Shown here piece after piece: positions 12,387 through 58,982 of a stretch of 62,256 nt of DNA. Made by a program: the position numbers and the translations under genes. Positions within the stretch are counted from its first letter, which is position 1. Every line of letters starts with the position of its first letter. The notes beneath the pieces were generated by a model that saw nothing but the letters and a program-made list of their open reading frames with translations, was not told the DNA's origin and made no database searches. The DNA lies in the NCBI GenBank assembly GCA_031292555.1, contig JARLGV010000128.1:1-62256 (forward strand), written 5' to 3'. The stretch comes from Fimbriimonas sp. Its GTDB lineage: Bacteria > Armatimonadota > Fimbriimonadia > Fimbriimonadales > Fimbriimonadaceae.

Positions 12387-15300
12387 CTAGGAGATCGTCA
12401 GCGTCGCGGTTTTCGATCCGCCGTTCAAAGTTGACGTTATTGTTGCCGACGTCTTCGACGTGACCTTTGAGGTCGTTGCCTTGAAAGTGATCGAGGTCTT
12501 TCCGGCTGGGATCGTCACCGATCCTGGAACAGTGGCCGATTGCGAACTACTCGACAAAGTGATCGCCAACCCACCGGAAGGGGCGGCCGAACTGATCGTT
12601 ACCGTGCCAGTACTGGATGCGCCGCCCTTGACCGACGTCGGGCTGAGAGCGAGTGACTTGATTGTCGGCGCGTTGACCGTCAAAGTCGCGGTCTGGCTTA
12701 TGCCATTGAGAGAGCCAGTGAGCGTAGCGACCGTCTGAGAGCCAACTGCCACCGTCTTGACGGTGAAGTTTGCCGAGGTCTTCCCCGCTGCGATCGTGAC
12801 CGATGCAGGTGGACTCGCGGCGCTCTTATTGCTCTTGAGGCTTACGATCATCCCTCCCTTCGGTGCAGCAGACGATATCGTCGCCGTACCCGTCGCCGAA
12901 GTGCCCCCAACAACCGCCGTCGGACTCACCTTGATGGACGCCAACGTCGGAGGGTTGATCGTCAGTGTCGCCGATCGAGTAACCGTCCCTAGCGATCCAG
13001 TTACCGTGGCCGTCGTTTGCGTTGTGACGACGACCGTCGTTACCGCGAATGTTGCCGACGAATTGCCGGACGCGATCTTGATGCTTGCCGGAGCCGAGGC
13101 ACTCTTCGAACTGCTGCTCAAGCCAACCGTGAAGCCACCCGTCGGTGCGCGTCCTGTCAGCGTGACCGTTCCCGTTGAAGAAGCGCCTCCGCTCACGGTA
13201 GCCGGTGAAAGCGATACCGACTGGAGCGTTATCGGGTTCACAGTTAGCACCGCCGATTGGATCGACGTCTGGAACGTCGCCTTAATTGTCGCGGTTACTG
13301 CCGAGGTCACCACGGTCGTACCGATCGCAAAAGTCGCGGTCGATTGTCCGGCAGCAACCGTAACAGCCGTAGGAACCGACGCTGCCGAGGCACTGCTCGT
13401 CAACGCCACCGTAATCCCGCCGGTGCCGGCCGGGCCGCTTAGCGCGACCGTGCCGGTCGAGGCGTTCCCGCCCGTCACGGAGGTCGGGCTCAGGCTCACC
13501 GAAATAAGCGAGGGTGGGTTCACGGTAAGAGTTGCCGTCTTGATTGCCGTCCCAAGCTTGGCTGTCAGCGTCGCAGTTGCCAAACTGCTCACTGCTTGCG
13601 TGTTAGCCGTGAACGTGGCTGAGGTGGCACCAGCCGCGACCGTTACGCTTGCAGGAACCGTTGCCGCCGAATTGTCGGACGTCAACGCAACTGCCGCCCC
13701 GCCGGAAGGCGCCGGCCCGCTAAGCGTGACGGTTCCGGTCGCCGATTTACCGCCTACAACTGCGTTAGGCGACACCGAGATGCCGGTGAGGGCTGCCGGA
13801 TTGACAGTGAGGGTCGCGGTCTTGCTTGTCGAACCTTGGCTCGCCGTAATCGTCACGGTCGCCTGGGCAGCAACCGGGTTCGTCGCTATGGTGAAGGTTG
13901 CCGTCGTGGCTCCCGAAGTAACCGTAACGCTGGACGGAACCGACGCACTGGTCGAATTCGATTGGAGGTTGATGACGACGCCACCGCTAGGGGCCGCAGA
14001 ACTCAGCGTAACGGTGCCCGTAGAAGATGTCCCTCCGGTTACTGACACGGGGGACACCGAAACCCCTGTCAGAGCTACCGAACTGATCGTTAAGGTCGTG
14101 CTCGACTTTGAACCGTTTAGCGTCGCGCTGATCGTCGCAGTCACGGTATTGGTAACGGCCTTTGTCGGAACCGCAAACGTCGCGGTCGTGGATCCGGCAC
14201 TGACGGTGACGGTTGCCGGAGGGCTTGCACTCGTTGAACTCGATGAGATCGCGACCGTCGCTCCACCGGTGGGAGCCGCCGCATTCAGCGTCACGGTTGC
14301 GTTCGATGAGTCGCCACCAACGACGGACGTCGGAGAGAGAGTCAGACTGTTGACCGTAAGTGGCGTGATCGTCAGCGTAGCGCTCACCGAACTCGTCCCC
14401 ATCGTCGCCGTTATCGTTGCAATCACCGACGTGGCAACCGACTTCGTGGTGACCGTAAACGTCGTCGAAGAGGCGCCTGCAGCGATGGTGACGCTCGACG
14501 GAACCGAGGCATCCGTCTTGCTGGACGACAGGTTGATGACTGTACCGCCAGTCGGAGCGGGGGCAGTGAGCGTAACCGTTCCCGTCGAACTGTTACCTCC
14601 CACCACCGAAGTCGGCGATACCGTCACGTTCTGCAGTCCGGGTGGCGAAATCGTGAGGGTCGAGGAGGCACTGGTTGAGCCGACCTTTGCAGTAATCGTG
14701 GCGGAGACCGTTGAAGCAACCGCCGTCGTTGCGGTGGTGAACGTAGCGTTCGTCACCCCGGCAGCTACAGTCACACTGGAGGGAACGGTTGCGCTCGTAC
14801 TGCTCGACGACAGATTGACAACCGTACCTCCGGATGGCGCAGGCCCATTCAGGGTCACCGTGCCTGCGGAGGATATGCCTCCGACGACCGCAGATGGGTT
14901 GAGAGTGACCGTCGAAGGCACAGGAGAGGTCACGGCAAGGGTGGCAGTCAGCACGTTGGCGCCCTGAGTCGCCGTAATCGTGGCAGTGCCCGAACTCGCA
15001 ACTGGCACGGTCGTGACGGTGAAGGTTGCAGACGACGCTCCGGATGCCACCGTGACCGTGCCCGGGACCGTAGCGGTGGAGGCATTCGACGAAAGCGTAA
15101 CCGTCGTGCCTCCGGCTGGGGCGGGAGCCCCAAGGGTCACGGTTCCGGTTGCCGGCGTACCTCCAACGACGGATGTGGGAGATATCGACAGTCCGGTCAG
15201 ACCGGAGCCTCCGCCAACGGGGTTGCTGGCTCCCACGATGTCGCCGTTGTAGTTACAGTAAACGATCTGCTTTCCATCGGCCCTGACTGACACGGAACTG

Positions 15301-17288
15301 ATGATTCCGGTCCGGTAGTAACTGGCCCGGGTGTTATCCGAAGTGCGGAATACCTGTAAATCGTAAGCCGTCGAGATGAAGTAGTTCTTGCCGTCCGGCG
15401 TGTAGCGAATCGTCGCAATGCCATATACGTCGCCACTTGGGTTGAGGGTCGCCTGGTTCGCCCCAGAAGCGGCATTCCAAAACTCAAGCACCGGCGTGTA
15501 CACGTTGGTGAGTGGATTGTACGAATACCCGCCGGTCGCAAGGGTCTTTCCGTCGGGCGAAAATGTCACCGCAAGAATCGATCGGTTTGCCGATGTCGCG
15601 AGCGTTCCTGACACCGTCAGACTGCTCATACTCCAGAGTTCGATCACGCCCGACAAGGCCGAATCGCCGCCAACAACAAGTTGGGATCCGTCTGACGAAA
15701 AAGCAAGCGCATGCACTCCCCCGGTGGCGGAAGTGGTTAACGATTTCACAAGGACGCCGGTCTTTACGTTCCAGATCTCCAGAACTGGGTTACTTGCCGA
15801 ATCCAAACCACCAACGGCCAGGGTTTTCCCATCTGGGCTTAGCGCGACGGCCGCGTTGAACGCGCCAAGGGAGCCTTCCCCTCCAATCTGAGATGCCAAC
15901 GATTGGGTAAGGGCGCCAGCGCCAAGATCCCAGACTTCGACCAAGCCCCCGCTGGATGCAGAGATCGAGGAGCCAGCGGCAATGAGCGTCTTTCCGTCCG
16001 CGGAAACCGTGAGGGCATCGACGACTGACAAGGAAGTGCCGAGGTTCTTGAGGGTCTCGCCTGTCGCGCTGTTTAGCAACGTCAGAGATCCGACCGGAGT
16101 GCTATTCATCTGCGCCTCACCCCCGACCACTACGGTGGCTCCATCGGGAGTAAAGGCTGATGCAAGGACGTATGCGTAGGTCGGCATCTCCAACGTCGAT
16201 AGCAGGACGCCGGACGATGCGTTCCAGAACTCGATCGCGCCCTGGCCGGCATTGCCGATGCCGGATTCCTGGCCGCCCACAGCCAAGGCACTGCTACCGG
16301 GCACGTAACACATCCCGCTTACCATGCCGCATTTGGTGTTGAGCGGAGTCTCACTTCCAGAGGAGATCGTGAACAGCTCAACCTGGTTCTGGCTGGACAG
16401 GTCGTTGTATCCACCATCGGCGAGCGTACTACCGTCAGGAGATATAGCAATCGCGTTGATCCCGGTCAAGGCTGTGCTAAACGTCTTCACGTTGCCGTTC
16501 GACATGGACCACATCTCAAGAGCCGATGTCTCACCGGCGCGGTACCCGCCGTCAAAAAGAAACTTTCCGTCGGATGAGAACTTCAGGGACATCACCGCAT
16601 CGGAGTTGCCGGTCGCTAGTGTCGTCGACTTGCTGGTAGCCATATTCCACAGTTCAAGAACTCCATTACCGACGTCGCCGCCACCAACGGCGAGAACCGA
16701 TCCGTCAGGAGAGTACGCGACGGCGTTGACGGTGTTCGTGCTCGTTGACAGGGGCGTGACCGACCCATCGGCCAGCTTCCATAGCTCGAGAACCCCGGTA
16801 CGGTTATTGGCCTGATCAACGCTGTAGCCGCCATCGGCCAGCGTCTTGCCGTCAGGAGAGAATGAAAGTCCAAAGACACCGGTGTTCGCCTGTGAGACAA
16901 AACGGTTCAAGAGCTTCCAGCCGGAGACCTTCCAAATTTCGACTAACCCGTGAGCAATACCGTCCTGTCCGCCGACGGCCAACGTGCTCCCATCACTCGA
17001 GAAGGCGACGCAGTATGCGCCCCCGCTGATGGTTGACGGGAGGTAAGCAATAGATCCCGTGGCAATCGTATCGATGGCGACTCCGTTCCAGCCTGCCAAC
17101 GCAAGTAGCTTCCCATCGGGTGAATACGTGAGCGCGTTTGGCTGGCAGAGATTGCCAGCTACCCACTGGTTTGGCAGAAGACCTTGCCCGTGAGCGACCG
17201 AACCGAAATGGCCCATCACAACGCAGACCAGCCACAACAGGATCCTCTTAACAAACCGGGACGAAACTTGAAAACGTCGATCAGCCAT
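12387..17288 (-). CDS. Giant secreted protein: 14 WD40-like blades plus 10 Ig-like repeats
   Basis: Exported 1633-residue protein of unknown specific function. A signal peptide (RILLWLVCVVMGHFGSVAHG) is followed by 14 WD40-like blades (about residues 45-710), each with a core like VAFSSDGSTLAVGGQDG and most ending in a strand such as LEIWN; 14 blades suggests two seven-bladed propellers. The rest is ten tandem Ig-like repeats of about 92 residues, each starting with a core like LSPTSVVGGxSSTGTVTL, then APxGGxxVxLSS, a VPxSVTVAAG strand and an ATFTVTT strand. There is no sorting signal, lipobox or membrane anchor at the C terminus, so attachment is unclear; the protein could be shed or bound by the propellers. 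Start: ATG with GGAGAGGG close upstream and a good promoter at 17321-17349. Related proteins lie at 36168, 41281 and 51828. Confidence 0.9.
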   Translation of the reverse strand: MADRRFQVSSRFVKRILLWLVCVVMGHFGSVAHGQGLLPNQWVAGNLCQPNALTYSPDGKLLALAGWNGVAIDTIATGSIAYLPSTISGGAYCVAFSSDGSTLAVGGQDGIAHGLVEIWKVSGWKLLNRFVSQANTGVFGLSFSPDGKTLADGGYSVDQANNRTGVLELWKLADGSVTPLSTSTNTVNAVAYSPDGSVLAVGGGDVGNGVLELWNMATSKSTTLATGNSDAVMSLKFSSDGKFLFDGGYRAGETSALEMWSMSNGNVKTFSTALTGINAIAISPDGSTLADGGYNDLSSQNQVELFTISSGSETPLNTKCGMVSGMCYVPGSSALAVGGQESGIGNAGQGAIEFWNASSGVLLSTLEMPTYAYVLASAFTPDGATVVVGGEAQMNSTPVGSLTLLNSATGETLKNLGTSLSVVDALTVSADGKTLIAAGSSISASSGGLVEVWDLGAGALTQSLASQIGGEGSLGAFNAAVALSPDGKTLAVGGLDSASNPVLEIWNVKTGVLVKSLTTSATGGVHALAFSSDGSQLVVGGDSALSGVIELWSMSSLTVSGTLATSANRSILAVTFSPDGKTLATGGYSYNPLTNVYTPVLEFWNAASGANQATLNPSGDVYGIATIRYTPDGKNYFISTAYDLQVFRTSDNTRASYYRTGIISSVSVRADGKQIVYCNYNGDIVGASNPVGGGSGLTGLSISPTSVVGGTPATGTVTLGAPAPAGGTTVTLSSNASTATVPGTVTVASGASSATFTVTTVPVASSGTATITATQGANVLTATLAVTSPVPSTVTLNPSAVVGGISSAGTVTLNGPAPSGGTVVNLSSSSTSATVPSSVTVAAGVTNATFTTATTAVASTVSATITAKVGSTSASSTLTISPPGLQNVTVSPTSVVGGNSSTGTVTLTAPAPTGGTVINLSSSKTDASVPSSVTIAAGASSTTFTVTTKSVATSVIATITATMGTSSVSATLTITPLTVNSLTLSPTSVVGGDSSNATVTLNAAAPTGGATVAISSSSTSASPPATVTVSAGSTTATFAVPTKAVTNTVTATISATLNGSKSSTTLTISSVALTGVSVSPVSVTGGTSSTGTVTLSSAAPSGGVVINLQSNSTSASVPSSVTVTSGATTATFTIATNPVAAQATVTITASQGSTSKTATLTVNPAALTGISVSPNAVVGGKSATGTVTLSGPAPSGGAAVALTSDNSAATVPASVTVAAGATSATFTANTQAVSSLATATLTAKLGTAIKTATLTVNPPSLISVSLSPTSVTGGNASTGTVALSGPAGTGGITVALTSSASAASVPTAVTVAAGQSTATFAIGTTVVTSAVTATIKATFQTSIQSAVLTVNPITLQSVSLSPATVSGGASSTGTVTLTGRAPTGGFTVGLSSSSKSASAPASIKIASGNSSATFAVTTVVVTTQTTATVTGSLGTVTRSATLTINPPTLASIKVSPTAVVGGTSATGTATISSAAPKGGMIVSLKSNKSAASPPASVTIAAGKTSANFTVKTVAVGSQTVATLTGSLNGISQTATLTVNAPTIKSLALSPTSVKGGASSTGTVTISSAAPSGGLAITLSSSSQSATVPGSVTIPAGKTSITFKATTSKVTSKTSATITSTLNGGSKTATLTIS

Positions 17289-21911: not shown

Positions 21912-21967
21912 TTACTGCCAGGGTATGCAGTGAAAACGGGCGAGGTTAGGAAACTACCTGGCAGTAA
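21912..21967 (+). repeat. Inverted repeat, 11-bp perfect stem with 34-nt loop
   Basis: TTACTGCCAGG at 21912-21922 is exactly complementary to CCTGGCAGTAA at 21957-21967. It lies about 170 nt upstream of the pilin start codon and is either an RNA hairpin in the leader or a protein-binding dyad. Confidence 0.55.
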
Positions 21968-22052: not shown

Positions 22053-22110
22053 CCGGGCCAGTAGACAGACTAGAAAGAGACTGCTGATGGCGCCGGGCCA
22101 GTAGATAGAC
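22053..22110 (+). repeat. Direct repeat pair CCGGGCCAGTAGAYAGAC upstream of the pilin gene
   Basis: Two 18-nt copies (22053-22070 and 22093-22110) differ at one base and are spaced 40 nt apart. They end 26 nt before the pilin start codon, just ahead of the AGGAG ribosome binding site, so they could be duplicated binding sites for a regulator or RNA elements. Confidence 0.6.
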
Positions 22111-22136: not shown

Positions 22137-22703
22137 ATGAAACAATTCAAATTCAACCGTTTTGCCCCTCTCGCCCTTGGTACCGTATTGCTGCTTGGAG
22201 CAGTCCAAAGCGCCAACGCCCAGGCGAGTTCCTCAGCGACTGCCAATGGATCCGCCCAGATCGTCGCAGCCATCGCTATCACGGCGAACGATAACCTTAT
22301 GTTCGGCCAGATCGTCGCCGATACGTCGGGAGGCACCGTTACCGTTACCCCTGCCGGAGTTAGAACCTTCCCGGGGCACACGCTAATCACGAACCAATCG
22401 GGATTGGCAAATTCAGCCGTCGGGGCGGCATCGTTCTCGATCACCGGAATGCCAGGCTATGCCTACTCCATCACCTTGCCTACGCTCGACACGACGAGCC
22501 CGGTAACCATCACCTCGGGATCCGGCGAAGGTGCACCCTCGATGACGCTCGATACATTCAAGAGTGCCACCCTATCGGGTACTGCGACCCTGAGCGAATC
22601 GGGTACCGATACTCTCACCGTAGGCGCCAACCTGAACGTCGGCCCAAGCCAGGTTGCCGGCTTCTACACCGGTTCCTTCAGCGTAACCGTTAACTACTCG
22701 TAA
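22137..22703 (+). CDS. DUF4402 secreted protein, probable fimbrial subunit
   Basis: Exported 188-residue protein. Signal peptide: LALGTVLLLGAVQSANA with cleavage before QASSS. The mature part is Gly/Ser/Thr/Ala-rich and all-beta; AIAITANDNLMFGQIVAD and the closing AGFYTGSFSVTVNYS match the DUF4402 domain. There are no cysteines in the mature protein. Proteins with this domain are commonly found beside PapD-like chaperones and ushers, and the final beta strand would suit donor-strand exchange, so I read this as the structural subunit (inference). The ATG at 22137 has AGGAG 8 nt upstream. The chaperone gene follows after 234 nt that include strong hairpins, which would allow the subunit to be made in excess over chaperone and usher. 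Confidence 0.82.
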   Translation: MKQFKFNRFAPLALGTVLLLGAVQSANAQASSSATANGSAQIVAAIAITANDNLMFGQIVADTSGGTVTVTPAGVRTFPGHTLITNQSGLANSAVGAASFSITGMPGYAYSITLPTLDTTSPVTITSGSGEGAPSMTLDTFKSATLSGTATLSESGTDTLTVGANLNVGPSQVAGFYTGSFSVTVNYS

Positions 22704-22712
22704 CCCCATCTC

Positions 22713-22748
22713 TCAGCCCTTGGCAGAGCAAGAGCTTCCAAGGGCTGA
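22713..22748 (+). terminator. Strong intercistronic hairpin after the pilin gene
   Basis: TCAGCCCTTGG (22713-22723) pairs perfectly with CCAAGGGCTGA (22738-22748), starting 9 nt after the pilin stop codon. No T-tract follows, so it may be a partial terminator or a 3'-end stabiliser rather than a full stop, since the chaperone gene lies downstream on the same strand. A second stem-loop (CTGAAGCA with TGCTTCGG) lies near 22826-22850. Confidence 0.6.
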
Positions 22749-22937
22749 ACCTTCCTGATTTGGGCTCACTTCCCCCTACAGCCCGAATCGAGCGGAACTG
22801 GACCGACATCCGACAACAATATGAGACTGAAGCAATGTCCCTGCTTCGGCTCATGAGCTGAACCTCCATCGGCAATGCGCTGAGATTCTTCTTGCTCACG
22901 CTCAAAGCCGACCTCATCCGAGGCTCTGGGTCATTCT

Positions 22938-23813
22938 ATGAGAGATCTCCGAAAACAACTATCTTTGTCCACTGTATGCGTGCTCCTGGGAGCCGCAACC
23001 CTGCAAGCCGGCATTCAGCAACCAGCCCAAACACCACGGGCGAGAGCCGGAGACCTCCTTGTTTCACCGATGCGTATCGTGTTCGAGGGCCCCAAACGGA
23101 CGGCCGAGATCAGCCTGCTCAATATTGGGGACAAGCCGTCGCTCTACCGAATCTCCCTGATACACGAACGCATGAACGAAGACGGTGACCTCGTCAACGT
23201 CGCCACCCCAGGGGCCGACGACAGGTTCGCGGACGATCTCGTTCGTTTCACTCCCCGCCAAGTTCTATTGGCTCCACGTGTATCACAGGTTGTCCGCATT
23301 CAGTTGAGACTGCCAGCCGACCTTGCGACCGGAGAGTATCGTTCGCACATGCTTTTTCGCGCCGTTTCGGCGGATTCCGCACCCGACCAGGCGCCCGCCG
23401 CCGCCGATCTGCCCAAAGGGCTAACTGTCCAGATCAAGCCGATTTTCGGTCTGTCCATCCCCGTGATCGTTCGCCATGGGGAGACATACGCCTCGGCCGA
23501 TTTCGCCGAGGTACGACTCGTCTCAACGCCAGATGGACTGCCTGTGCTCGTCGGCAAACTGACTCACACTGGTAATGCATCGGTGTATGGCGACCTGGTC
23601 GTCGAATTCGCTCAGAATGGCCAGCCCTTCAAAACGCTCGCAAGGACCAATGGCGTGGCGATCTATGCAAGCAATGCCACCAGGAGCTTCGCCGTCCTTG
23701 TTTCTCAGGACAAGACGCTGCAACTGCATAACGGCACGATACGTGCAACCTACAAGCACTCCGATGCCGACGGCGGTCAACCGTTCGCGAAGACTCAAGT
23801 CACTGTACTGTGA
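22938..23813 (+). CDS. PapD-like periplasmic fimbrial chaperone
   Basis: Periplasmic chaperone of the chaperone-usher pathway, which caps pilus subunits by donating a beta strand. Signal peptide LSLSTVCVLLGAATLQAG, then the N-terminal Ig-like domain starting LLVSPMRIVFEGPKRTAEISLLN, the usual opening of such chaperones. The edge strand QVLLAPRVSQVVRIQLRLP corresponds to strand G1, with alternating hydrophobic residues used for donor-strand complementation, followed by TGEYRSHMLFRAV. The C-terminal domain occupies about residues 160-291. At 291 residues it is longer than classical PapD (about 240), as is common in archaic/alternative systems. The usher gene overlaps its stop codon by 4 nt (GTGA), so the two are translationally coupled. 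Confidence 0.9.
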   Translation: MRDLRKQLSLSTVCVLLGAATLQAGIQQPAQTPRARAGDLLVSPMRIVFEGPKRTAEISLLNIGDKPSLYRISLIHERMNEDGDLVNVATPGADDRFADDLVRFTPRQVLLAPRVSQVVRIQLRLPADLATGEYRSHMLFRAVSADSAPDQAPAAADLPKGLTVQIKPIFGLSIPVIVRHGETYASADFAEVRLVSTPDGLPVLVGKLTHTGNASVYGDLVVEFAQNGQPFKTLARTNGVAIYASNATRSFAVLVSQDKTLQLHNGTIRATYKHSDADGGQPFAKTQVTVL

Positions 23814-26416
23814 ACATCTTCCGGGCATTGGCGTGCGCCGGTCTCATGATCTGCTCGGCGCACGTTCTCGGAGCGACCACTCAGTCGATCGGCCAAACGA
23901 ATCTCAAGACGGACGCCGTCTCATTCGTGAAGCCATCTGAGGACGACTTGCTCCTTCTGTCTCTCGTTTTGGAGGAGATCGATCTGACCGACGAAATTGA
24001 GGCATACCGAAACGGAGCAGGCGTCTTGCTCCCCCTCGGCGCCATCTGCCGCTTGTTGGAGATCGCGGTCCGGACCACCCCTGCCGATGGAACCGCCGAA
24101 GGCTTTGTCGGCAGGAGCAGCCGCACGTTCAGTCTGGACGTTCGACAAAAACGGATCAAGGTTAGCGGAAAGGACGAACCCTACGATCCAGCCTACGTTC
24201 AGGTCCAGCGCAACGACATTTACGTCGACTATCGAGCGCTGAACAAGTGGCTTGCACTCGGAATCGAGATCAACGAGAACGGCCTCGCAATCTACGTCAA
24301 TCCCAAAGACCAGCTTCCCCTCCAAAGACGACTCCGGCGAGAGAACCTCGCAAACCAACTGAACAAGGGCGAATACCACGACCCGGGATTTGCCCGGGTG
24401 CCCAATCCGTATCAAGCGCTCGGCAGCCCCGCCATCGACCAGTCTCTTTCGTTTGGCGACGCCGAGGCCACAAGAGCGAAGTCAACTTCAATACGATACG
24501 ACGCCCAATTTGCATCCGATTTCGCTGAGGGGAGCTTGGATGGCAGCCTGGACCTTGAATCGCGAACTGGACCGGCAGGCCTGTTGTCGTTCGTGCTCAA
24601 GAACCAAGAGGGCGGACTGCTTGGTTCCCTCAATGCGCGGCAAGAGACCATCGGGTACACGACATCGTTGGATTTGCCGCTGGTGTCGTCGTCACATGCA
24701 ATCACCGGATTCGCCGCCTCCAATGACCCCGTCTCCCAGGTCGGTCCTGCGAAAACGACAACCCTCACCGGACCGCTGCAGCCAGGTTGGGACGTCGAGC
24801 TATTCCGGGGCGAAGCTCTTATCGGCTACCAAGAGGAGAATGGACCCGGCAAATACGAGTTCAAGAATGTGGCTTTGCATCCTGGAACAAACAAATTTCG
24901 CCTTATTTTCGATGGCCCTCTTGGTGAGCGTCGGGAAGAAGTCCAAACGAGGAACGTCGTCGGCACATTGGAGCCCGGGTCCCTTCAATATGAGGCGGTC
25001 ATAGGAGGGTCTGCTAGCTCCCCGGAGTGGGCAGCCCAATCCAGTCTGGGAATCAAGCGCGACCTAACCGTCTTCACCAGTATAGCGAGCGAACCTGTCG
25101 ACGGCGGAAGACACCTGTATTCGACGGTCGGGATGCGCGGTTACTTTGCCAACGCACTGATCACCACTTGCATTGTCGACGATCCTGCTTCGGGTCAGGC
25201 AAGTCAAATCGACGGCGAATGGGCATGGGGCAGGGCTTTCGTCGGACTGAGCCAAACGAACGTGACCGGTCTCGTGAGCGGCATATACGGGCGGGAACAG
25301 GACCCGGATAGGAGCGACACCGAATTGAGGCTCCAGAATCTTACGATGCCCAATTGGTCGCACCTCCTGCCTGCCGACCTAGAAATCAGTCGACGCGAGA
25401 CGGTCTTCGGAACCCAGGAGTGGAAGGCTGAGGGTCGCCTATCCTACCAACGAAACGGACTCAGCATTACCAACATGACGTCCACCCAAACGCAAACGGG
25501 CACCACCGACCATCGGACCGGCGAGCTGATGTTCAGTCGTTTCCAGAACGGTCATTCAACGGAAGCGAACCTGAACTATGATTGGTCCGGAACTCCCACG
25601 ATTGTATCCCTGGGGTTTCGCACAAGCAGGGTGCTGCGTGATGGCCGAATGCTCGCTTTTGGAGCCTATGAATCTCCTGGCGACGGGGACCTTGGCGTAA
25701 CCGGATCCCTATACCGAAATGACGACAACTATGCCTACGGCCTCATTCTCGACGTATCGAGAGCCCGTGGAATCATGCTTGGGTTGACCATCTCGTTCGG
25801 CATGGTACGGAACCCGTCATCCGGCAAGTGGATGACCACCGCCCGGTCGCAGGCGATGCAAGGCTCGGTGCTGATTCGGGTGTTCCAAGATTCGAAAGGC
25901 ACCGGGCATCTCGCCAAGGGTGATGCTCGGGTCGCCGGAGTTGCGATCTATGTGAACGACTCAGCGTTTCCGAAGTTGACAGGGCCAGACGGGACGGTCC
26001 TTATCGATGGCCTAGCGGCCTATCAACCAGCCGACATCAAGGTCGTGGAGGCTTCGATGGAGAACCCACTCATGATCTCGGCGTTGCCCGGACTGAGAAT
26101 TACCCCTCGGCCAGGAAACGTGCAGACGATCGACATGCCGGTCATAGCCACTGCCGAGGTAGCAGGAACCGTGTACACCCTTCAAGATAGGCGCCTCAGT
26201 GCCGCGAGTGGAGTCTTGGTCGAAGTCATCGACCGGGACGGTCGAGTCGTCCTAAGCCAGAGATCCGCGTTCGACGGCTACTATTCGATCAGCCGCGTCC
26301 CGGTCGGATCCTATGCGGTTCGTGCGAAGGCCTTTGGCGTCGAGACCTCCAAGAAGATCGTCGTTCCCCCGGAAGGCGCATACCTGGACGGCATTGACTT
26401 GACGCTTTCTCAATAG
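23810..26416 (+). CDS. Outer-membrane usher-like protein with C-terminal carboxypeptidase-regulatory-like domain
   Basis: Outer-membrane pore for fimbrial subunits. GTG start overlapping the chaperone stop (GTGA); signal peptide to about residue 22. Residues 65-130 (LLPLGAICRLLEIAV, RTFSLDVRQKRIKVSG) and 140-165 (NDIYVDYRALNKWLALG) match the N-terminal region of archaic/alternative ushers. About 190-720 is a long series of amphipathic beta strands with periodic aromatic residues, suitable for the barrel, including the middle-domain-like GWDVELFRGEALIGYQ and GKYEFKNVALHPGTNKFRL. Residues about 780-868 (VAGTVYTL, VLVEVIDRDGRVVLSQRSA, GYYSISRVPVGSYAVRAKA) form a CarboxypepD_reg-like Ig domain, the usher C-terminal position. 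Length, 868 residues, fits ushers. Its presence implies a diderm envelope. Confidence 0.85.
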   Translation: MNIFRALACAGLMICSAHVLGATTQSIGQTNLKTDAVSFVKPSEDDLLLLSLVLEEIDLTDEIEAYRNGAGVLLPLGAICRLLEIAVRTTPADGTAEGFVGRSSRTFSLDVRQKRIKVSGKDEPYDPAYVQVQRNDIYVDYRALNKWLALGIEINENGLAIYVNPKDQLPLQRRLRRENLANQLNKGEYHDPGFARVPNPYQALGSPAIDQSLSFGDAEATRAKSTSIRYDAQFASDFAEGSLDGSLDLESRTGPAGLLSFVLKNQEGGLLGSLNARQETIGYTTSLDLPLVSSSHAITGFAASNDPVSQVGPAKTTTLTGPLQPGWDVELFRGEALIGYQEENGPGKYEFKNVALHPGTNKFRLIFDGPLGERREEVQTRNVVGTLEPGSLQYEAVIGGSASSPEWAAQSSLGIKRDLTVFTSIASEPVDGGRHLYSTVGMRGYFANALITTCIVDDPASGQASQIDGEWAWGRAFVGLSQTNVTGLVSGIYGREQDPDRSDTELRLQNLTMPNWSHLLPADLEISRRETVFGTQEWKAEGRLSYQRNGLSITNMTSTQTQTGTTDHRTGELMFSRFQNGHSTEANLNYDWSGTPTIVSLGFRTSRVLRDGRMLAFGAYESPGDGDLGVTGSLYRNDDNYAYGLILDVSRARGIMLGLTISFGMVRNPSSGKWMTTARSQAMQGSVLIRVFQDSKGTGHLAKGDARVAGVAIYVNDSAFPKLTGPDGTVLIDGLAAYQPADIKVVEASMENPLMISALPGLRITPRPGNVQTIDMPVIATAEVAGTVYTLQDRRLSAASGVLVEVIDRDGRVVLSQRSAFDGYYSISRVPVGSYAVRAKAFGVETSKKIVVPPEGAYLDGIDLTLSQ

Positions 26417-36158: not shown

Positions 36159-36167
36159 ATGGATGGA

Positions 36168-39100
36168 TTGATCTACGGACTCACCAAAGCGGCCGGATTG
36201 CGAGCAAAGCGCATCGTGATCGCGTTTGCGTTGGCGACTTCCCTCGCCGTCCCCACCTTATCCAAGGCTCAAGGATCGATGCCGCTTCAATGGCTCTTCA
36301 ACTCGATCTCCGGCCCCTCGTGCACCGCATTCACGCCGGACGGCGCCATGCTTGCGGTTGGAGGCGACGGAGGGCTCCAGATATACGACGCTCATTCGGG
36401 AGTGCCGATTCGCAGTCTCTCTCTGGGCATCGACCACTCCGTTCAAAGCTTGGCATTCACGGCTGACGGCAAGACGCTCGCCGCCGGCTCGAGCGGCGAT
36501 CTTCAGCTATGGAACGTCGCGGATAGTCGGCTGATCAAACTCCTCCATACTGGCTTAACAACGATCCGGTCGACCAAACTCTCCGCCGACGGTTCGATCG
36601 TAGTGGTTGGCGGCCTTGGCCCGGCACAGGACGACCTCGAAGTATGGAATGTGGTCGGCTCGACCAAGTTGAAGACCCTCCAATCGGCCGCAACCGAGAT
36701 CAACTCGGTAGCGCTGAGCCCAGACGGCAAACTGGCCGTGGCTGGGGGCCAAACGGCAACCGCAGGAACGGCGGAGGTCTGGAATCTTGCGAATGGAAAC
36801 CAAGTCGCTTCCCTCTTGACGGCAGAGGTCCCGGTTGTTTCTGTCGCCATCTCGCCGAATAGTCAGTCATTGGCGGTCGGGGGCCAGGTCCTGAGGCCGA
36901 ATGGAAGTTACGCCGGCTCTGTGGAAGTATGGTCCCTTTCCAGTTTCACCCTGAAACAGATACTACCGACGACCCAGACGAGCATCTCGGCAGTGGATTA
37001 CTCCCCAGATGGAAGCTCCTTGGCCGATTCGGGAAACGGCCATGCCAACTACCCTACTTACACGAACGTCGGTGAGATCGAGATATGGGATACGGCCACC
37101 GGTTACGTGTCTCGGTCAGGCGTGAACCACCTGTCCGCTATCTCGACCATGAGCTTCTCCCCAGACAGTCAGACGGTCGCGATAGGCGGCTCGTACACCT
37201 GGGACCGCCTTTTCGACGTGGGCTATATAAGAATCCTCCAGATCCCCAGCTTCTATGGAATCGTAGGATCGACAACCGGTTCGGACGTGCTCAGTTCGAC
37301 GCCGCCGGTGTTTTCTCCCGACGGAAAATCCATCATCGGAGGCGGCGCCCGCCTCACTGATGGCACCGTAGATCTTTGGAACGCCTCTACTGGCACGTGG
37401 CTGGCAAACCTCAATACCGGATACTTCAACCCGATTGGTGGCTGCGTGTACTCCCCCGACGGAAGTACGATTGCGATTGGGCTGGGCAACGGAAGCGGAT
37501 CGGTCCAGCTATGGGACGCTTCAACGTGCACGCTACGCCAGACCCTGACGACCAACGCTACCGCCATCTCGTCGGTCAAATTCTCTCCCGATGGATCGAA
37601 ACTTGCGGTTGGCGGCAGTTTGGCCAATTCCTCAGGCGATCTCGAGGTATGGAGCGTCAAGACTGGGCAACGCTTGGTTTCAATTGGCACCGGCGCCAAC
37701 CAAAGCATCAAAAGTGTCGCATTCTCCACCGATAGCTCACTTCTTGCCGATTGCGGATTTTCGACGGATGGGGCGACCCTTAATCAGGTTGGGGTCGTTG
37801 AGGTCTGGCAAACTTCCGATGCACGTCTAATCGCTTCGTACGCCACGTCGACGACGATTGCCTCGTCAATTGCCTTTTCACGCGACGGTTCCAACCTCGC
37901 GGTTGCCGGCCAATCGGGCAGTGCTCGGACCGTTCTCGAGATTTGGTCTCTGGCGAAGGGAACGGCGGTGAGACCGTTCTTGGCTACCGGCGCCAGCGGA
38001 CTCGGCTTCGTCACCTATTCTCTGGATGGGAAGACCCTCTATCTCGCCGGCAATAGCTCCATCGGGATCGAGGGCTTTCGAACGTCGGACTACGCCATGC
38101 TGGGCTACTTCTCCGACGACGCCATTTCTATGGCAGTGTCCCCTGATGGCACTCGGCTGGCATACATGTCAAGGAACAACGACTTGGTCGTCGGGCCGAT
38201 TCCGATCTTCACCTCGTTCAATATCACGGGGCTGTTAGTGGCTCCGACATCGGTCGAAGGTGGCAACCTGGTTTCCGGTACGGTCACCTTAGCCTATCCT
38301 GCTCCCGCCTCGGGCGTTACGGTCAAACTGGAGTCATCTGGATCGACCGCCTCGGTGCCGGCATCCTTGTTTATTCCGGCAGGGGCCCTTACGGCTACAT
38401 TTGAGGTGACCACATCTCCGTCCCAGACCAAGGCATCGCTTTCCATAACCGCATCGAGCGGGCCCCACTCCCAGTCGGCGGATCTCACAATCACCCCGCC
38501 GACCGTGGCTTTGTTGTCGGTTACGCCCTCGACCATCGCAGGCGGGAACAAGGTATATGGATCGGTCACCCTGGGAGGTCCCGCATTTACCGGCGGTGTC
38601 ATGGTTACGCTTACAAGCAGCAACTCGGCGGCGGTCGTGCCCCTTTCGATCGCCATCCCCGGCGGACAGACGACGGGGACCTTCACGATCACTACTTCGG
38701 GGGTCGATGCCAAGACAACGGCGAGTATTACGGCCACTCTGAACGGGGCATCGAGGTCCGCATCGCTCTCGGTGATTCCCGCCTTCCTTTCCCATATCGT
38801 AATCGCTCCCGCTTCCGTATTCGGCGGCTACGGGGCGAAAGCAACCGTCGTACTTACGGGCGCAAGCGGACCAACGGGGCTCGACGTTTCGCTTTCAAGT
38901 TCCGATCCGGCGGTCACTGTCCCTCCGAAAGTCACGATTCAGCCAGGCATGAGCAGCGCCAGCTTTAGCGTTGTGACTAATCCGGTGCCGTCCAATCGAG
39001 TCGTCGCTTTGACGGTCAAGGCGAGCGGAGTGAGCCGCCAAGTGAATCTCACCGTGATTGCGCTGCAATTGCGATCGCTGAGTCTTTCACCATCGGTGTT

Positions 39101-39344
39101 GACCGGAGGCGCCGCCGGCGTCGGGACGGTGCGACTTACCTCCCCGGCTCCGGCAAACGGACTCAACATCGCCCTATCGAGTAATAGCCAGCTCGTCAAG
39201 GTACCCAATGTCGCCAAGATTCCTGCCGGGTTCACGTCCGCGAACTTCGCCATCAAGACATATAGAACGTCCGCGCCCACCAAGGCCGTAGTAACCGCGT
39301 CCCTATTCGGCACAAGCGTTTCTGCGAACTTGACCGTCCGCTAG
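36168..39344 (+). CDS. Secreted protein: 14 WD40-like blades plus 4 Ig-like repeats
   Basis: Paralogue of the giant at 12387-17288 with the same plan but fewer repeats. Signal peptide (IVIAFALATSLAVPTLSKA), then 14 blades (about residues 45-690), for example VALSPDGKLAVAGGQ, VKFSPDGSKLAVGGS and AFSRDGSNLAVAGQ, consistent with two seven-bladed propellers. The C-terminal 370 residues hold four Ig-like repeats beginning LLVAPTSVEGGN, LSVTPSTIAGGN, IVIAPASVFGGY and LSLSPSVLTGGA. No anchor at the C terminus. Start: the AGCAGGAG at 36151-36158 abuts an in-frame ATG at 36159 but is 9 nt from TTG 36168, so TTG is the better start. A hairpin terminator follows at 39406. Confidence 0.88.
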   Translation: MIYGLTKAAGLRAKRIVIAFALATSLAVPTLSKAQGSMPLQWLFNSISGPSCTAFTPDGAMLAVGGDGGLQIYDAHSGVPIRSLSLGIDHSVQSLAFTADGKTLAAGSSGDLQLWNVADSRLIKLLHTGLTTIRSTKLSADGSIVVVGGLGPAQDDLEVWNVVGSTKLKTLQSAATEINSVALSPDGKLAVAGGQTATAGTAEVWNLANGNQVASLLTAEVPVVSVAISPNSQSLAVGGQVLRPNGSYAGSVEVWSLSSFTLKQILPTTQTSISAVDYSPDGSSLADSGNGHANYPTYTNVGEIEIWDTATGYVSRSGVNHLSAISTMSFSPDSQTVAIGGSYTWDRLFDVGYIRILQIPSFYGIVGSTTGSDVLSSTPPVFSPDGKSIIGGGARLTDGTVDLWNASTGTWLANLNTGYFNPIGGCVYSPDGSTIAIGLGNGSGSVQLWDASTCTLRQTLTTNATAISSVKFSPDGSKLAVGGSLANSSGDLEVWSVKTGQRLVSIGTGANQSIKSVAFSTDSSLLADCGFSTDGATLNQVGVVEVWQTSDARLIASYATSTTIASSIAFSRDGSNLAVAGQSGSARTVLEIWSLAKGTAVRPFLATGASGLGFVTYSLDGKTLYLAGNSSIGIEGFRTSDYAMLGYFSDDAISMAVSPDGTRLAYMSRNNDLVVGPIPIFTSFNITGLLVAPTSVEGGNLVSGTVTLAYPAPASGVTVKLESSGSTASVPASLFIPAGALTATFEVTTSPSQTKASLSITASSGPHSQSADLTITPPTVALLSVTPSTIAGGNKVYGSVTLGGPAFTGGVMVTLTSSNSAAVVPLSIAIPGGQTTGTFTITTSGVDAKTTASITATLNGASRSASLSVIPAFLSHIVIAPASVFGGYGAKATVVLTGASGPTGLDVSLSSSDPAVTVPPKVTIQPGMSSASFSVVTNPVPSNRVVALTVKASGVSRQVNLTVIALQLRSLSLSPSVLTGGAAGVGTVRLTSPAPANGLNIALSSNSQLVKVPNVAKIPAGFTSANFAIKTYRTSAPTKAVVTASLFGTSVSANLTVR

Positions 39345-41280: not shown

Positions 41281-44200
41281 CTAGGTGATCGTCAGCGTTG
41301 CCGTCTTCGTCACTCCGTTGAGCGCTCCTAAGATCGTCACAGTCGTCCTCGCGCTCACCGTAGACGTCTTGACCGTGAAAGTCGCCGATGTTTTTCCGGC
41401 TGCGATGGTCACGGTAGTTGGAGGCGTTGCCGCCGGAAGGCTGCTCGACAAGGTGATCACTAACCCGCCGGTCGGTGCGGCCGAACTGATCGTTACGGTT
41501 CCCTTGCTGGTCTTACCGGGCGCCACCGACGCCGGACTCAGCGCCACTGACTTCAGAGTGGGAGCGCTAACGCTAATCGTCGCCGTCTTGTGGACGCCTC
41601 CCTGCGATGCCGTCAGGGTCGCGATCTGGTTGGTTGCCACCGCGACTGTCTTGACACTAAACGTAGCCGACGTTTTATTCACGGGCACAATCACGTAGGC
41701 TGGTACCGCCCCGGGACCGGCGACCGACAATCCAACGGATATACCGCCGGCAGGCGCCGATCCATTTAGGGTCACGGTACCGACCGCCGAAATGCCACCC
41801 ACAAGGCTCGTGGGTTTGACCGTGACGGAACTCAGCGCCGGCGGCGTTATCTTGAGCTGCGCGGTTTCCGAGTCTTCGTTCAGGCTCGCGCTGATCGTAA
41901 CCGTTTCCTGAGCGGCGATCGCGACTGTCTTTACTGTGAACGTGGCGACCCTCTGGCCCGGTTTGACCTTCACGGTTGCCGGAACCGTGCCTAAATGCGA
42001 GTTACTGGACACCTTCACCGTCATGCCGCTCGTCGGCGCCGGGCCGCTCAAACCCACCGCGCCAGTCGAGGACGAGCCACCAATTAGGGTGGTCGGATTG
42101 AGGCTCAACGCTTCTAGGGTCGGAGGAGTGACCGTCAGTTCTGCCGTGTGCGACACCTTTGCATTGGTTGCAGTGATAGTCGCCTCGAGTTTTTCGGCAA
42201 CGGTGATCGTAGTTATCTGGAAGGTCGCCTCCTCTTGTCCAGCCGCGACGGTTACGGATTTGGGTACCGTCACTTCTGAGCTATTGCTCGCCAAAGTGAC
42301 AGCCATCCCGCCGACACCCGCCTCGCCGCTAAGGGTGACAGTGCCGGTCGCCGGGTTTCCCCCCGCCACTTCGGTCGGGTCGATCGAGATCGACGCCAAT
42401 GTCGGGGGAGCAATAATGAGGTCTGCCGACTTGATCACTCCATGTGAAGTTGCCGTTAGCGTTACCGTCGTCGAAGCGCTGACGACCCCGGTATTGATCG
42501 TGAAAGTAGCGGAATTCGCCCCCGCCGGTACGAGCACGTTCGCCGGGGCCGCCACATAGTCGCTGTTGTCGCCAAGCTCTACCCAAGTCCCGCTTGGGCC
42601 AGCCGGTCCGCTTAGCGTGACTGTCCCTGTCGAATTGTCCCCTCCATCGACCGTTTTCGGGTTCAGACTCAGCGAGGACAACACCGCTGGAGTGATCGTG
42701 AGTGTCGCCGTCTTCGCCCATAATCCGCTGCCTGCGGAGATCGTAACGGTCGTCGAATCATCGACCCCGACCGTTGTAATGGCAAAGGTTGCGGTCGTCG
42801 CCCCGGCAGCTATCGTGACCGTCTTCGGAACAGTCGCGCTCATGTTGGTCGACGATAACGTCACAGTCGCCCCGCCCGTAGCGGCGGCTGCCCCAAGGGT
42901 AACCGTTCCCGTAGACGAGGTCCCGCCGACGACCGAGTTGGGCGCGAGGCTCACACTTTTCACCGCCGGAGTTGAGACCCCTGCGAGCGACCACATCATG
43001 CCGGCGCCATACCAGCCTGCCGCGTTTTTCCCGCCGTTTTCGTTCACTCCAAACAACACTCCGGCGGTGCTCACTGTGACTGGCGCACAAGGAAAGGTCC
43101 CGTCGTAACCACTCGAACCATCCGAACGCGTCGCCGATCCCCCGAAGTCATGGAGGTCAAAGTAGGATCCCGATGCGGTGAGTTCCCACAGCATGCCGAA
43201 ACCGTTATTTCCTTCGCCGTACGCACCTCCGTAGTAGGTGGTCCCGAACATATTCCCCGCCTGATCAAACGTCACCCCGGCGGCGGGAGCCCTGCCATCC
43301 ACTCCTATCGTTCCGTTAGGATAGACCACCGCTCCGCCGAAGTCATGTAGGTCGACATAGCTCCCCGATGCCGTTACCTCCCAAACCATTCCGAAACTGT
43401 TGCCGTATTGATCAGTGGCTCCACCACCCTCCGCTGTTCCGTACATATTCCCAGCGCCGTCGAATGTCAACTGCCCGGCAGGATGCAATCCGTCCAGACC
43501 GACCGCCCCACTGGCATTGACGATCGTTCCACCGAAATCGTGTATGTCCTTGTACGTACCTGCGGCAGTGATCTCCCAAAGCATTCCGGACCCGTCGTTG
43601 CCTACAGTATTGGGGCCCCGCGCAATAGCCGTTCCATACCGGTTTCCAGCGCTGTCGAAAGCCACTGGGGAGGCAGGGAACACGCCGTCCTTTCCTACCG
43701 TTCCATTGGCATTTATGACGTATCCGCCGAAGTCGTGCAGGTCTCGGTATTTTCCGCTTACTGTGATCTCCCAGACCATTCCGCTATTGGCGGACGGGCC
43801 GACGTCCGATTTGTTGGCTCCTCCATATTCAGTCGTGCCGTACAAGTTCCCGTTGCGATCGATGGTGACGCCGGCGAATGGGTAAGTGCCGTCCGGCCCG
43901 CCCGTGCCGTCGGCATTGACGATAGTTCCGCCGAAGTCGTGAAGGTTCAGGTACGTTCCCGAAGCCGTAATCTCCCACACCATGCCGCCGCCGAATTCGC
44001 CGCCCCCACTCGCCGTGCCGTAAAGGTTGCCGCTACTATCGATCGTGACTCCGGCACAAGGTTCGATTCCATCTGGGCCGGTCGTTCCGTTGGCGCGTGT
44101 AGCGGTGCCTTGAAAGTCGTGCAGGTCCTTGTAGGCTCCCGAAGTCGTGACCTCCCATATCATTCCGCCACCAAGTCCATTGACGATGATGGCGCCGCCT

Positions 44201-44469
44201 CCTACAGTCGTTCCATACATATTGCCGGCGCTGTCGAAGGTGGCCCCGGCATAGGATTCGATGCCGTCTGGCCCGCTCGTCCCGTTGGAGTAGACGATTG
44301 TCCCTCCGAAGTCGTGGATGTTCGTGTACTTAGGCCGCGATTGGGCAACTGCTTGAGTGCCGGTAAACAGCACGACGAACAAGAGCAAACAGCGCAGGTG
44401 GCTCATGATCACCCATACGACAGGGGTCCTGTACATCATGTTCCCGTAGCGGGAGCCGGGAAAACGCAA
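41281..44469 (-). CDS. Secreted protein: 7 GloVer-type repeats plus 6 Ig-like repeats
   Basis: Exported protein of up to 1062 residues. The N-terminal half has seven repeats of about 65 residues, each with LHDFGGTIVNADGTGGPDG-like and YGTTxxGG segments ending MVWEIT, the tandem repeat known in NCBI naming as GloVer-containing; seven copies suggest a seven-bladed propeller. The C-terminal 550 residues are six Ig-like repeats of the same type as in the WD40/Ig proteins (LAPNSVVGGTSSTGTVTL and variants). The most upstream start is TTG 44469, with TATGCT exactly 6 nt before it; an internal ATG at 44406 (MSHLRCLLLFVVLFTG) gives a tighter signal peptide. No C-terminal anchor. Paralogue at 51828-54608. 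Confidence 0.88.
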   Translation of the reverse strand: MRFPGSRYGNMMYRTPVVWVIMSHLRCLLLFVVLFTGTQAVAQSRPKYTNIHDFGGTIVYSNGTSGPDGIESYAGATFDSAGNMYGTTVGGGAIIVNGLGGGMIWEVTTSGAYKDLHDFQGTATRANGTTGPDGIEPCAGVTIDSSGNLYGTASGGGEFGGGMVWEITASGTYLNLHDFGGTIVNADGTGGPDGTYPFAGVTIDRNGNLYGTTEYGGANKSDVGPSANSGMVWEITVSGKYRDLHDFGGYVINANGTVGKDGVFPASPVAFDSAGNRYGTAIARGPNTVGNDGSGMLWEITAAGTYKDIHDFGGTIVNASGAVGLDGLHPAGQLTFDGAGNMYGTAEGGGATDQYGNSFGMVWEVTASGSYVDLHDFGGAVVYPNGTIGVDGRAPAAGVTFDQAGNMFGTTYYGGAYGEGNNGFGMLWELTASGSYFDLHDFGGSATRSDGSSGYDGTFPCAPVTVSTAGVLFGVNENGGKNAAGWYGAGMMWSLAGVSTPAVKSVSLAPNSVVGGTSSTGTVTLGAAAATGGATVTLSSTNMSATVPKTVTIAAGATTATFAITTVGVDDSTTVTISAGSGLWAKTATLTITPAVLSSLSLNPKTVDGGDNSTGTVTLSGPAGPSGTWVELGDNSDYVAAPANVLVPAGANSATFTINTGVVSASTTVTLTATSHGVIKSADLIIAPPTLASISIDPTEVAGGNPATGTVTLSGEAGVGGMAVTLASNSSEVTVPKSVTVAAGQEEATFQITTITVAEKLEATITATNAKVSHTAELTVTPPTLEALSLNPTTLIGGSSSTGAVGLSGPAPTSGMTVKVSSNSHLGTVPATVKVKPGQRVATFTVKTVAIAAQETVTISASLNEDSETAQLKITPPALSSVTVKPTSLVGGISAVGTVTLNGSAPAGGISVGLSVAGPGAVPAYVIVPVNKTSATFSVKTVAVATNQIATLTASQGGVHKTATISVSAPTLKSVALSPASVAPGKTSKGTVTISSAAPTGGLVITLSSSLPAATPPTTVTIAAGKTSATFTVKTSTVSARTTVTILGALNGVTKTATLTIT

Positions 44470-51432: not shown

Positions 51433-51827
51433 CGGTGGGAGACCACCGGCTCCCTGCTGGATTATTGACGGATCGAACGCCTCACGGCACGTCCTTGGAA
51501 ATCCCTCCATGGGTTCCGACTCACCTGACGGGTCACAGACCTGCTCACTGATAGGCTATGCCCCTTGTCCTTACCCAGATCTCAGTTGGCATTCGGAGAA
51601 CGGAAGCTCCGATTGTGCGGATTCAAAGTAGTCTTGGGTGAAGCCAAGGGGCCGGGAGCCGCGCACCCAAACGGGCCAGAGGTCCGTGCCGTCTCGAGCA
51701 CCAGAAATCGGTTAAGCAAACTTTCTATACTCTTCGTTACTCTAGTCCATTCAACTAAAAGTTACGGTATAGTCGGGCCAGGCAGGTTGGACGACCTTGC
51801 CGTTCCCCTTGCCGAGAGGTGACAACG
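51433..51827. other. Intergenic region, about 395 bp
   Basis: No gene seen. On the right it holds AGAGGTG (51814-51820), a ribosome binding site for ATG 51828, and TATAGT-like sequence at about 51768, with no clear -35 at 17 bp. Confidence 0.4.
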
Positions 51828-57865: not shown

Positions 57866-58982
57866 CTGAAGCGCGCCGCCAAGCAGGCTGACCCCTTGCC
57901 GGTTTCCGGTGGAAGGATCGCCCATGCAGAACTGGATCGATGAACTCGTCAAAGGCCCTCGCATTCCAATGACCAAGCAGCACTAGGGCAGCGCCTGAGA
58001 CTTGGGCGAATGAGGTCGCTGTATCATTACGCGACTCACCGTCAAAGCGACGTCATTCATGGCTGCAGAGAACTCCATTCCTACGAATACGATCGACGAT
58101 TTTTTGGAGACGAATCTCGCCAATCAGAACTCCAAACTTCCCCAAAGTTGGGCTCACTAGCAGGTCCAGCTATTTCAAGTCGGCGAACAACGCGACGATT
58201 AACGGCATGACTTCTCAGCGAGCGTCGGACCTGCAGAGATCATTTTGAAGGACATCCCATATAGAGGCACAAGTCTATCGTTTTACTGACATTGGTTTCA
58301 TCATATGCATCCTCCGCATTCAATCATCTCGATTGAAACGGAGCCCCTGCGAGCGCGTCGCGGCCCCTGTTGCCGACATCCACACGTAGCCGTGGATGGG
58401 CCCGGCCTACGCTGGTCGTACTCATTTCCCAAAGCCCCTTCAGAGTGAAGAGGACCCAATCGTTGTTTTGGTGGCGCCATTCGAGGCGGTGCGGATTGCC
58501 GACTCCCCAAGTGTGCCGTTTCACGGATGCGGACAGCGCTGCTCGATGAAGCTCTCAAGCTCAGCACTCCTGACAGATGCAAAGACGGGGAGCCGACGAA
58601 CCCACTCCCCAAATCTCAGGTTCCCTATCCAGGACTTTGGGACTTTTGGCTCACTGACTCGATGGTGCCAACATAGCAGTGTAACGCGCCCAAATCGCCA
58701 ACCATCTGATCCGCAAAATGCAGGTACTCCCGGGTATCAGAAGCGTCTCTTCATAGCCTGTCAGGTACAAGGGACAAGATATACACCCCGCAAAACACTG
58801 GGCTTGCTTGCCTAGCGGCCTAGGTTGATAGGGACAGCAATACTGTTAATCACCCTATTCGATTAACTGGTTTCTTCGCTCCAAAAAGCCAAAACAAGAT
58901 CTTAAGCACTGGTTTGTCACCATAAAATGGCAGACCTCTATATAATTACCAATGGTTCCGTTTGGAAGGACAAGGAGAGCTT

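Follow-up and report, generated by a model that had tools for sequence, protein, structure and literature searches.

Three plus-strand genes in a 62,256-nucleotide stretch of Fimbriimonas sp. DNA (the window, meaning the whole stretch that was analyzed) very likely form a minimal chaperone-usher pathway, in which donor-strand polymerization would assemble a DUF4402 protein into a surface fiber. The genes lie where an earlier note on this DNA, made from its letters, had placed them:

22137-22703, plus strand, DUF4402 gene (188 residues; PF14352, E 8.7e-25)
22938-23813, plus strand, gene for a predicted PapD-like periplasmic chaperone of non-classical type (291 residues)
23810-26416, plus strand, gene for the predicted usher (868 residues, GTG start)

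In the list of open reading frames, the chaperone stop and the usher start share four nucleotides, GTGA, as the note had also reported. Since neither the chaperone nor the usher has an identifying Pfam match, their original identification was a guess from the residues. Single sequences could not confirm the chaperone-usher call, and therefore family-level evidence was needed. The reading of the three genes as a minimal pathway has since been borne out by their relatives and by structure prediction.

Searching plasmids by tblastn recovers the same cassette in Polaromonas, Sphingopyxis, Novosphingobium, and Pseudoalteromonas. These plasmid cassettes carry at least one DUF4402 protein and a chaperone that is mostly annotated as a fimbria/pilus periplasmic chaperone or as a molecular chaperone, and their ushers are annotated as carboxypeptidase regulatory-like, SdrD B-like, or hypothetical proteins. 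When species genomes were scanned, a single protein returned nothing, seven distant ushers were too varied, and three sequences worked. The scan yields 56 loci, mostly from Burkholderiales, with single loci in Desulfuromonadaceae, Gemmatimonadaceae, and a short contig labeled Eisenbacteria. Gene order was scored in the 43 loci (window included) that have at least 3 kb upstream of the usher. DUF4402, chaperone, and usher genes stand in this order on one strand in 41 of them, a conservation far beyond chance. There are two DUF4402 genes in 36 of these 41 loci, three in another four, and one solely in the window. Elsewhere in the scan, a locus of Polaromonas sp. P2-4 (L034, 5353-8638) has an usher frame split in two, with no chaperone or DUF4402 gene upstream in the locus, and its cassette looks decayed.

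Taken alone, the window chaperone sequence has no Pfam match. Within its family of 30 members, PapD_N is matched by 28 (best E 8.7e-9) and fimbrial chaperone models by up to 21. Compared using hhalign, the family profile aligns through both domains, over 208 columns, with the FimC set of five E. coli K-12 chaperones (E 5.9e-6), and with a Deinococcus archaic chaperone at E 7e-9; reversed and column-shuffled targets used as controls give E 0.027 or worse. At the family level, these profile matches identify the protein as a PapD-like chaperone homolog. In the chaperone superfamily one proline is invariant, and Arg89 of CsuC is restricted to the archaic and alternative chaperones (PMC4654587). 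Mapping the CsuC positions onto the window protein by way of the Deinococcus chaperone finds the invariant proline kept as P106 (30/30) and the domain-1 arginine, which in CsuC holds the subunit's C-terminus, kept as R135 (29/30). Where classical chaperones have their anchor lysine, the alignments read by eye apparently show a proline, P175. The retained R135 and the exchange of the lysine for a proline point to a non-classical way of holding the subunit. Based on their conservation, Y243 (30/30) and R210 (29/30) may correspond to the domain-2 anchor pair formed by Tyr196 and Arg174 in CsuC; the window itself has a histidine in place of R210, which counts against the pathway reading. The Gram-positive WxL-interacting protein domain (WxLIP, PF06030) is also matched by 12 of the 30 family members, and the best PDB match of a smaller chaperone profile is an Enterococcus WxLIP (E 0.0085); a distant link between the chaperone and the WxLIP system is possible.

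The Pfam Usher model (PF00577) matches neither the window usher nor anything else across the window's 6.46-Mb genome, and among 37 usher relatives it matches just one (E 5.2e-4). The sole Pfam matches of the window usher are CarboxypepD_reg/SdrD_B, at its C-terminus. The missing Usher match would suit a different kind of outer-membrane barrel, such as a porin or an LptD-like or TonB receptor-like protein, whose likeness to ushers would be that of any barrel. Because PDB searches by sequence profile gave no convincing ushers, chaperones, or pilins, a comparison of folds was needed. The AlphaFold2 model of the usher, built from 37 aligned sequences (mean pLDDT 84.4), has these predicted parts:

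23948-24304, plus strand, N-terminal periplasmic domain (residues 47-165, confidently modeled)
24431-25810, plus strand, beta-barrel (residues 208-667), six strands before the plug and 18 after
24755-24958, plus strand, plug domain (residues 316-383), between barrel strands 6 and 7
25859-26413, plus strand, two C-terminal beta-sandwich domains (residues 684-868)

In the model, DSSP finds six long barrel strands at residues 208-304 and 18 at 392-667, giving 24 in total, and six further strands within the insert at 316-383. FimD and PapC share this plan, their plug likewise being inserted after the sixth of 24 barrel strands; a predicted usher with no such barrel and plug would, by the earlier note, have refuted its reading. 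The plug stretch is also the part that matches a Deinococcus usher by profile (E 9.1e-5), and the C-terminal sandwiches are where the CarboxypepD_reg annotation originates (PF13620, E 1.3e-6). When the model is compared to the PDB by Foldseek, the best 18 matches are all FimD or PapC chains (E 9.5e-27 to 4.8e-11), an SdrD domain protein comes next, and porins and LptD are at about 1e-5, an E-value that nearly all of the FimD and PapC matches far surpass. The VIA-align comparison with the FimD translocation domain (3ohn) reaches Z 19.6 over 369 residues at 5.2 A; unrelated porins attain up to Z 15.5 (OccK3), a score that counts for the other-barrel explanation. VIA alignments to FimD and PapC begin at about residue 189, after the domain at 47-165, which is a candidate for the usher domain that binds complexes of chaperone and subunit, and those to full ushers extend to residues 866-868 of the window protein. 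The resemblance is a distant one, with TM-scores to FimD and PapC of about 0.4, VIA rms deviations of 5-13 A, and an identity of about 10%. Against a porin, LptD-like, or TonB receptor-like barrel stand the Foldseek ranking, the strand number and plug position shared with ushers, and the PapD-like chaperone gene that precedes the usher in nearly all loci, and this explanation is highly improbable. The PF00577 miss is a limit of the sequence model, not a structural criterion. By its computed architecture, the 868-residue protein is an outer-membrane usher.

The DUF4402 protein consists of a signal peptide, a short N-terminal extension, and a pilin-like fold that ends in the strand GFYTGSFSVTVNYS. 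Its only Pfam match is DUF4402, with none to SCPU (PF05229, whose search of the window's genome was run without a positive control). In the AlphaFold2 model (pLDDT 82), the first 46 residues are without secondary structure, and the donor strand may lie here:

22221-22274, plus strand, candidate N-terminal donor strand (about residues 29-46, QASSSATANGSAQIVAAI)

When the model is aligned by VIA to the assembled Csu pilus, its residue 31 sits at residue 1 of a CsuA/B chain. The model's last strand region, YTGSFSVTVNY, is equivalent in the VIA alignment to the last strand of CsuA/B, and no strand follows it; the complete Ig fold that would speak against donor-strand complementation, as the earlier note had pointed out, is not seen in the model, and the fold may lack the final strand that a donor would supply. 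In Foldseek, chaperone-usher subunits make up nearly all of the top 50 matches, the best E being just 1.2e-3. The Foldseek and VIA matches include Caf1 (first in Foldseek), the PapG pilin domain, FimA, and CsuA/B, and VIA places archaic Csu subunits first, at Z 7.3 and 7.0 (6fm5, 114 residues, 3.8 A). These fold scores are modest, and at such values a common sandwich arrangement alone could suffice. They gain weight from the neighboring genes and from an independent profile match, since the DUF4402 profile aligns over its full length with Deinococcus archaic (SCPU) pilins at E 4.5e-7, with shuffled versions at 0.038 or worse. By profile, no significant DUF4402 match is found to FimA or EcpA. 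Judged by its computed pilin-like fold, the DUF4402 protein is a predicted fimbrial subunit. Profile searches of the window's genome find no second copy of either DUF4402 or the chaperone, and sequence searches find no tip adhesin for the window's system. The suggestion that this protein may be the only subunit therefore holds for the window's genome as far as sequence search reaches, but does not carry over to most relatives, with their two or three DUF4402 genes.

The working of the pathway can be outlined by analogy with the families just named, from which we infer donor-strand complementation and exchange, the fiber, and the fiber's role. The DUF4402 subunit would be exported by Sec, and the chaperone would then lend it a beta-strand, completing its pilin fold, and grip its C-terminal carboxylate. 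Chaperone-subunit complexes would be taken up by the usher, acting as a 24-strand outer-membrane pore gated by its plug. Subunits would be joined by donor-strand exchange, each displacing the chaperone's strand from its neighbor with its own N-terminal extension, and the product would be a thin surface fiber, probably for attachment or biofilm. Since a single subunit type is found by sequence search, this fiber is probably a homopolymer. The lone subunit and the tip adhesin that was not found would also suit a cassette laying down a DUF4402 coat or capsule-like layer, comparable to Caf1 capsules or the Myxococcus spore coat, in place of a discrete fimbria. Caf1, which Foldseek ranks first for the subunit, forms a capsule-like coat, and the subunit's Deinococcus relatives carry the annotation spore coat protein U. 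However, the subunit's best VIA alignments are to CsuA/B, which is a pilus subunit, and a coat is possible but rather unlikely. Computation cannot separate a thin fiber from a coat.

At the nucleotide level, the gap between the first two genes of the proposed pathway is structured:

22713-22853, plus strand, series of strong RNA hairpins (MFE z-score -5.3 for 22690-22945)

These hairpins may possibly lead to unequal expression of the subunit and the chaperone. They proved not to be conserved across the family, the median z-score over 19 loci being -0.81, with similarly strong structure only in locus L046. Upstream of the DUF4402 start, at a distance of about 170-225 nt, is a perfect 11-nt inverted repeat (TTACTGCCAGG / CCTGGCAGTAA, 21912-21967, arms 34 nt apart), which might serve as an operator or form a hairpin. 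Just upstream of the gene, two copies of the direct repeat CCGGGCCAGTAGA(C/T)AGAC are found 40 nt apart (22053-22110). Farther away in the window, four large exported proteins (12387-17288 and 41281-44469 on the minus strand, 36159-39344 and 51819-54608 on the plus strand) have, as seen by eye, common repeats of the type SxSPTSVVGGxSSTGTVTLSxPAPxGG, and two of them have N-terminal parts that look WD40-like. The product of 58962-61313 resembles, again by eye, a phage or contractile-injection tail sheath protein.

A contaminant contig of another phylum, carrying a system foreign to the lineage, could be suspected from the predominance of Burkholderiales in the species-genome scan and from a 201-genome sample of the phylum, in which the window's genome alone has the full-length family or DUF4402. 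That sample missed the congeners carrying the cassette, which were found by a genus-wide search using the chaperone profile. The chaperone is present in five of 20 genomes of the genus, the window's included, and the 15 without it include a single-contig 5.2-Mb genome. Two congeners have the order DUF4402-DUF4402-chaperone-usher, and their ushers are 37% identical to the window usher, as against about 30% for those of Burkholderiales. Two others have DUF4402-chaperone-usher of a more distant type (usher identity 21-24%), so that the single-subunit locus is not unique to the window. Tree building joins the window usher to those of the first two congeners with full support (100/100) and sets the other two apart as a clade of their own. 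The cassette is patchy within the genus, where it occurs in two lineages. Its presence in four other congeners, along with a base composition that is even across the region, makes contamination barely conceivable.

The earlier note had also connected the locus to the class name Fimbriimonadia. The Fimbriimonas ginsengisoli genome paper ascribes fimbriae to type IV pilus genes and does not mention ushers (PMC4072686). With that, and with most congeners lacking the chaperone, the name is no evidence for the locus, and the connection is not supported. In the rest of the phylum, usher-like matches in about 60 other genomes were rejected, as they cover just the C-terminal CarboxypepD/SdrD-like parts. 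A plug-like match in another genome (L104) was rejected as well, for the protein repeats a plug-like Ig domain several times and matches no barrel, and a PF00577 match below the cut-off (G088, E 6e-4, one stop) is unsupported by the family profiles. An archaic-looking operon is found in another genome of the phylum (L105, G166:C105), with SCPU-like subunits, a chaperone, a PF00577 usher, and a further SCPU-like subunit; it sits on a 6.7-kb contig, in a genome whose listed contamination is 6%.

As the Pfam Usher model is blind to this usher family, surveys relying on PF00577 would undercount such systems. For DUF4402, to which no function is assigned, the cassette suggests a role that can be tested, namely that of pilin in a non-classical chaperone-usher pathway, and the three-gene form should lend itself easily to reconstitution in E. 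coli K-12. No mention of DUF4402 or PF14352 was found in the open literature searched, which leaves out most subscription journals.

Among known systems, the archaic pili (Acinetobacter Csu, Pseudomonas CupE, Deinococcus SCPU) resemble the window's locus in clustering a small secreted subunit with a PapD-like chaperone and an usher. The Deinococcus system has profile similarity to all three window proteins (reversed and shuffled controls E 0.027 or worse), CsuA/B is closest to the window subunit's fold by VIA, and the non-classical arginine typical of archaic chaperones is kept. However, archaic subunits are SCPU (PF05229) and the window's is DUF4402; the usher's profile similarity is confined to the plug region; and Csu has a tip adhesin gene of the CsuE kind, which the window's locus lacks. 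The system is not filed under the archaic family, given its DUF4402 subunits in place of SCPU ones and an usher that PF00577 does not see. The classical systems (type 1/FimCD, P/PapCD, Caf1) share with the window usher the 24 strands, the plug, and the C-terminal domains, and FimC matches both domains of the chaperone family by profile. They differ in an usher identity of about 10%, in the anchor lysine whose position is here apparently P175, and in FimA, which is unlike DUF4402 by profile. The alternative (alpha) systems, such as E. coli ECP and CFA/I, have the non-classical chaperone arginine in common with the window (PMC4654587). Using one K-12 sequence each, hhalign gives a non-significant E of 0.52 for the usher with EcpC, a weak 0.0014 for the chaperone with EcpB, and 0.13 for DUF4402 with EcpA. 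The earlier note had described chaperone-usher systems as best known from proteobacteria and this one as lying in an apparently distant lineage, a remark in need of correction: systems outside the Proteobacteria were already known in Cyanobacteria and Deinococcus-Thermus (PMC4654587). The window's system is very probably homologous to the known chaperone-usher pathways, and is most likely a divergent, unannotated, non-classical variant of them. We lean toward its belonging to a separate, undescribed chaperone-usher clade, with DUF4402 subunits and an usher that has a CarboxypepD_reg-like C-terminus and is missed by PF00577. Such a clade would be found in Pseudomonadota, Thermodesulfobacteriota, Gemmatimonadota, and the window's genus, and its smallest form would need just one type of subunit.
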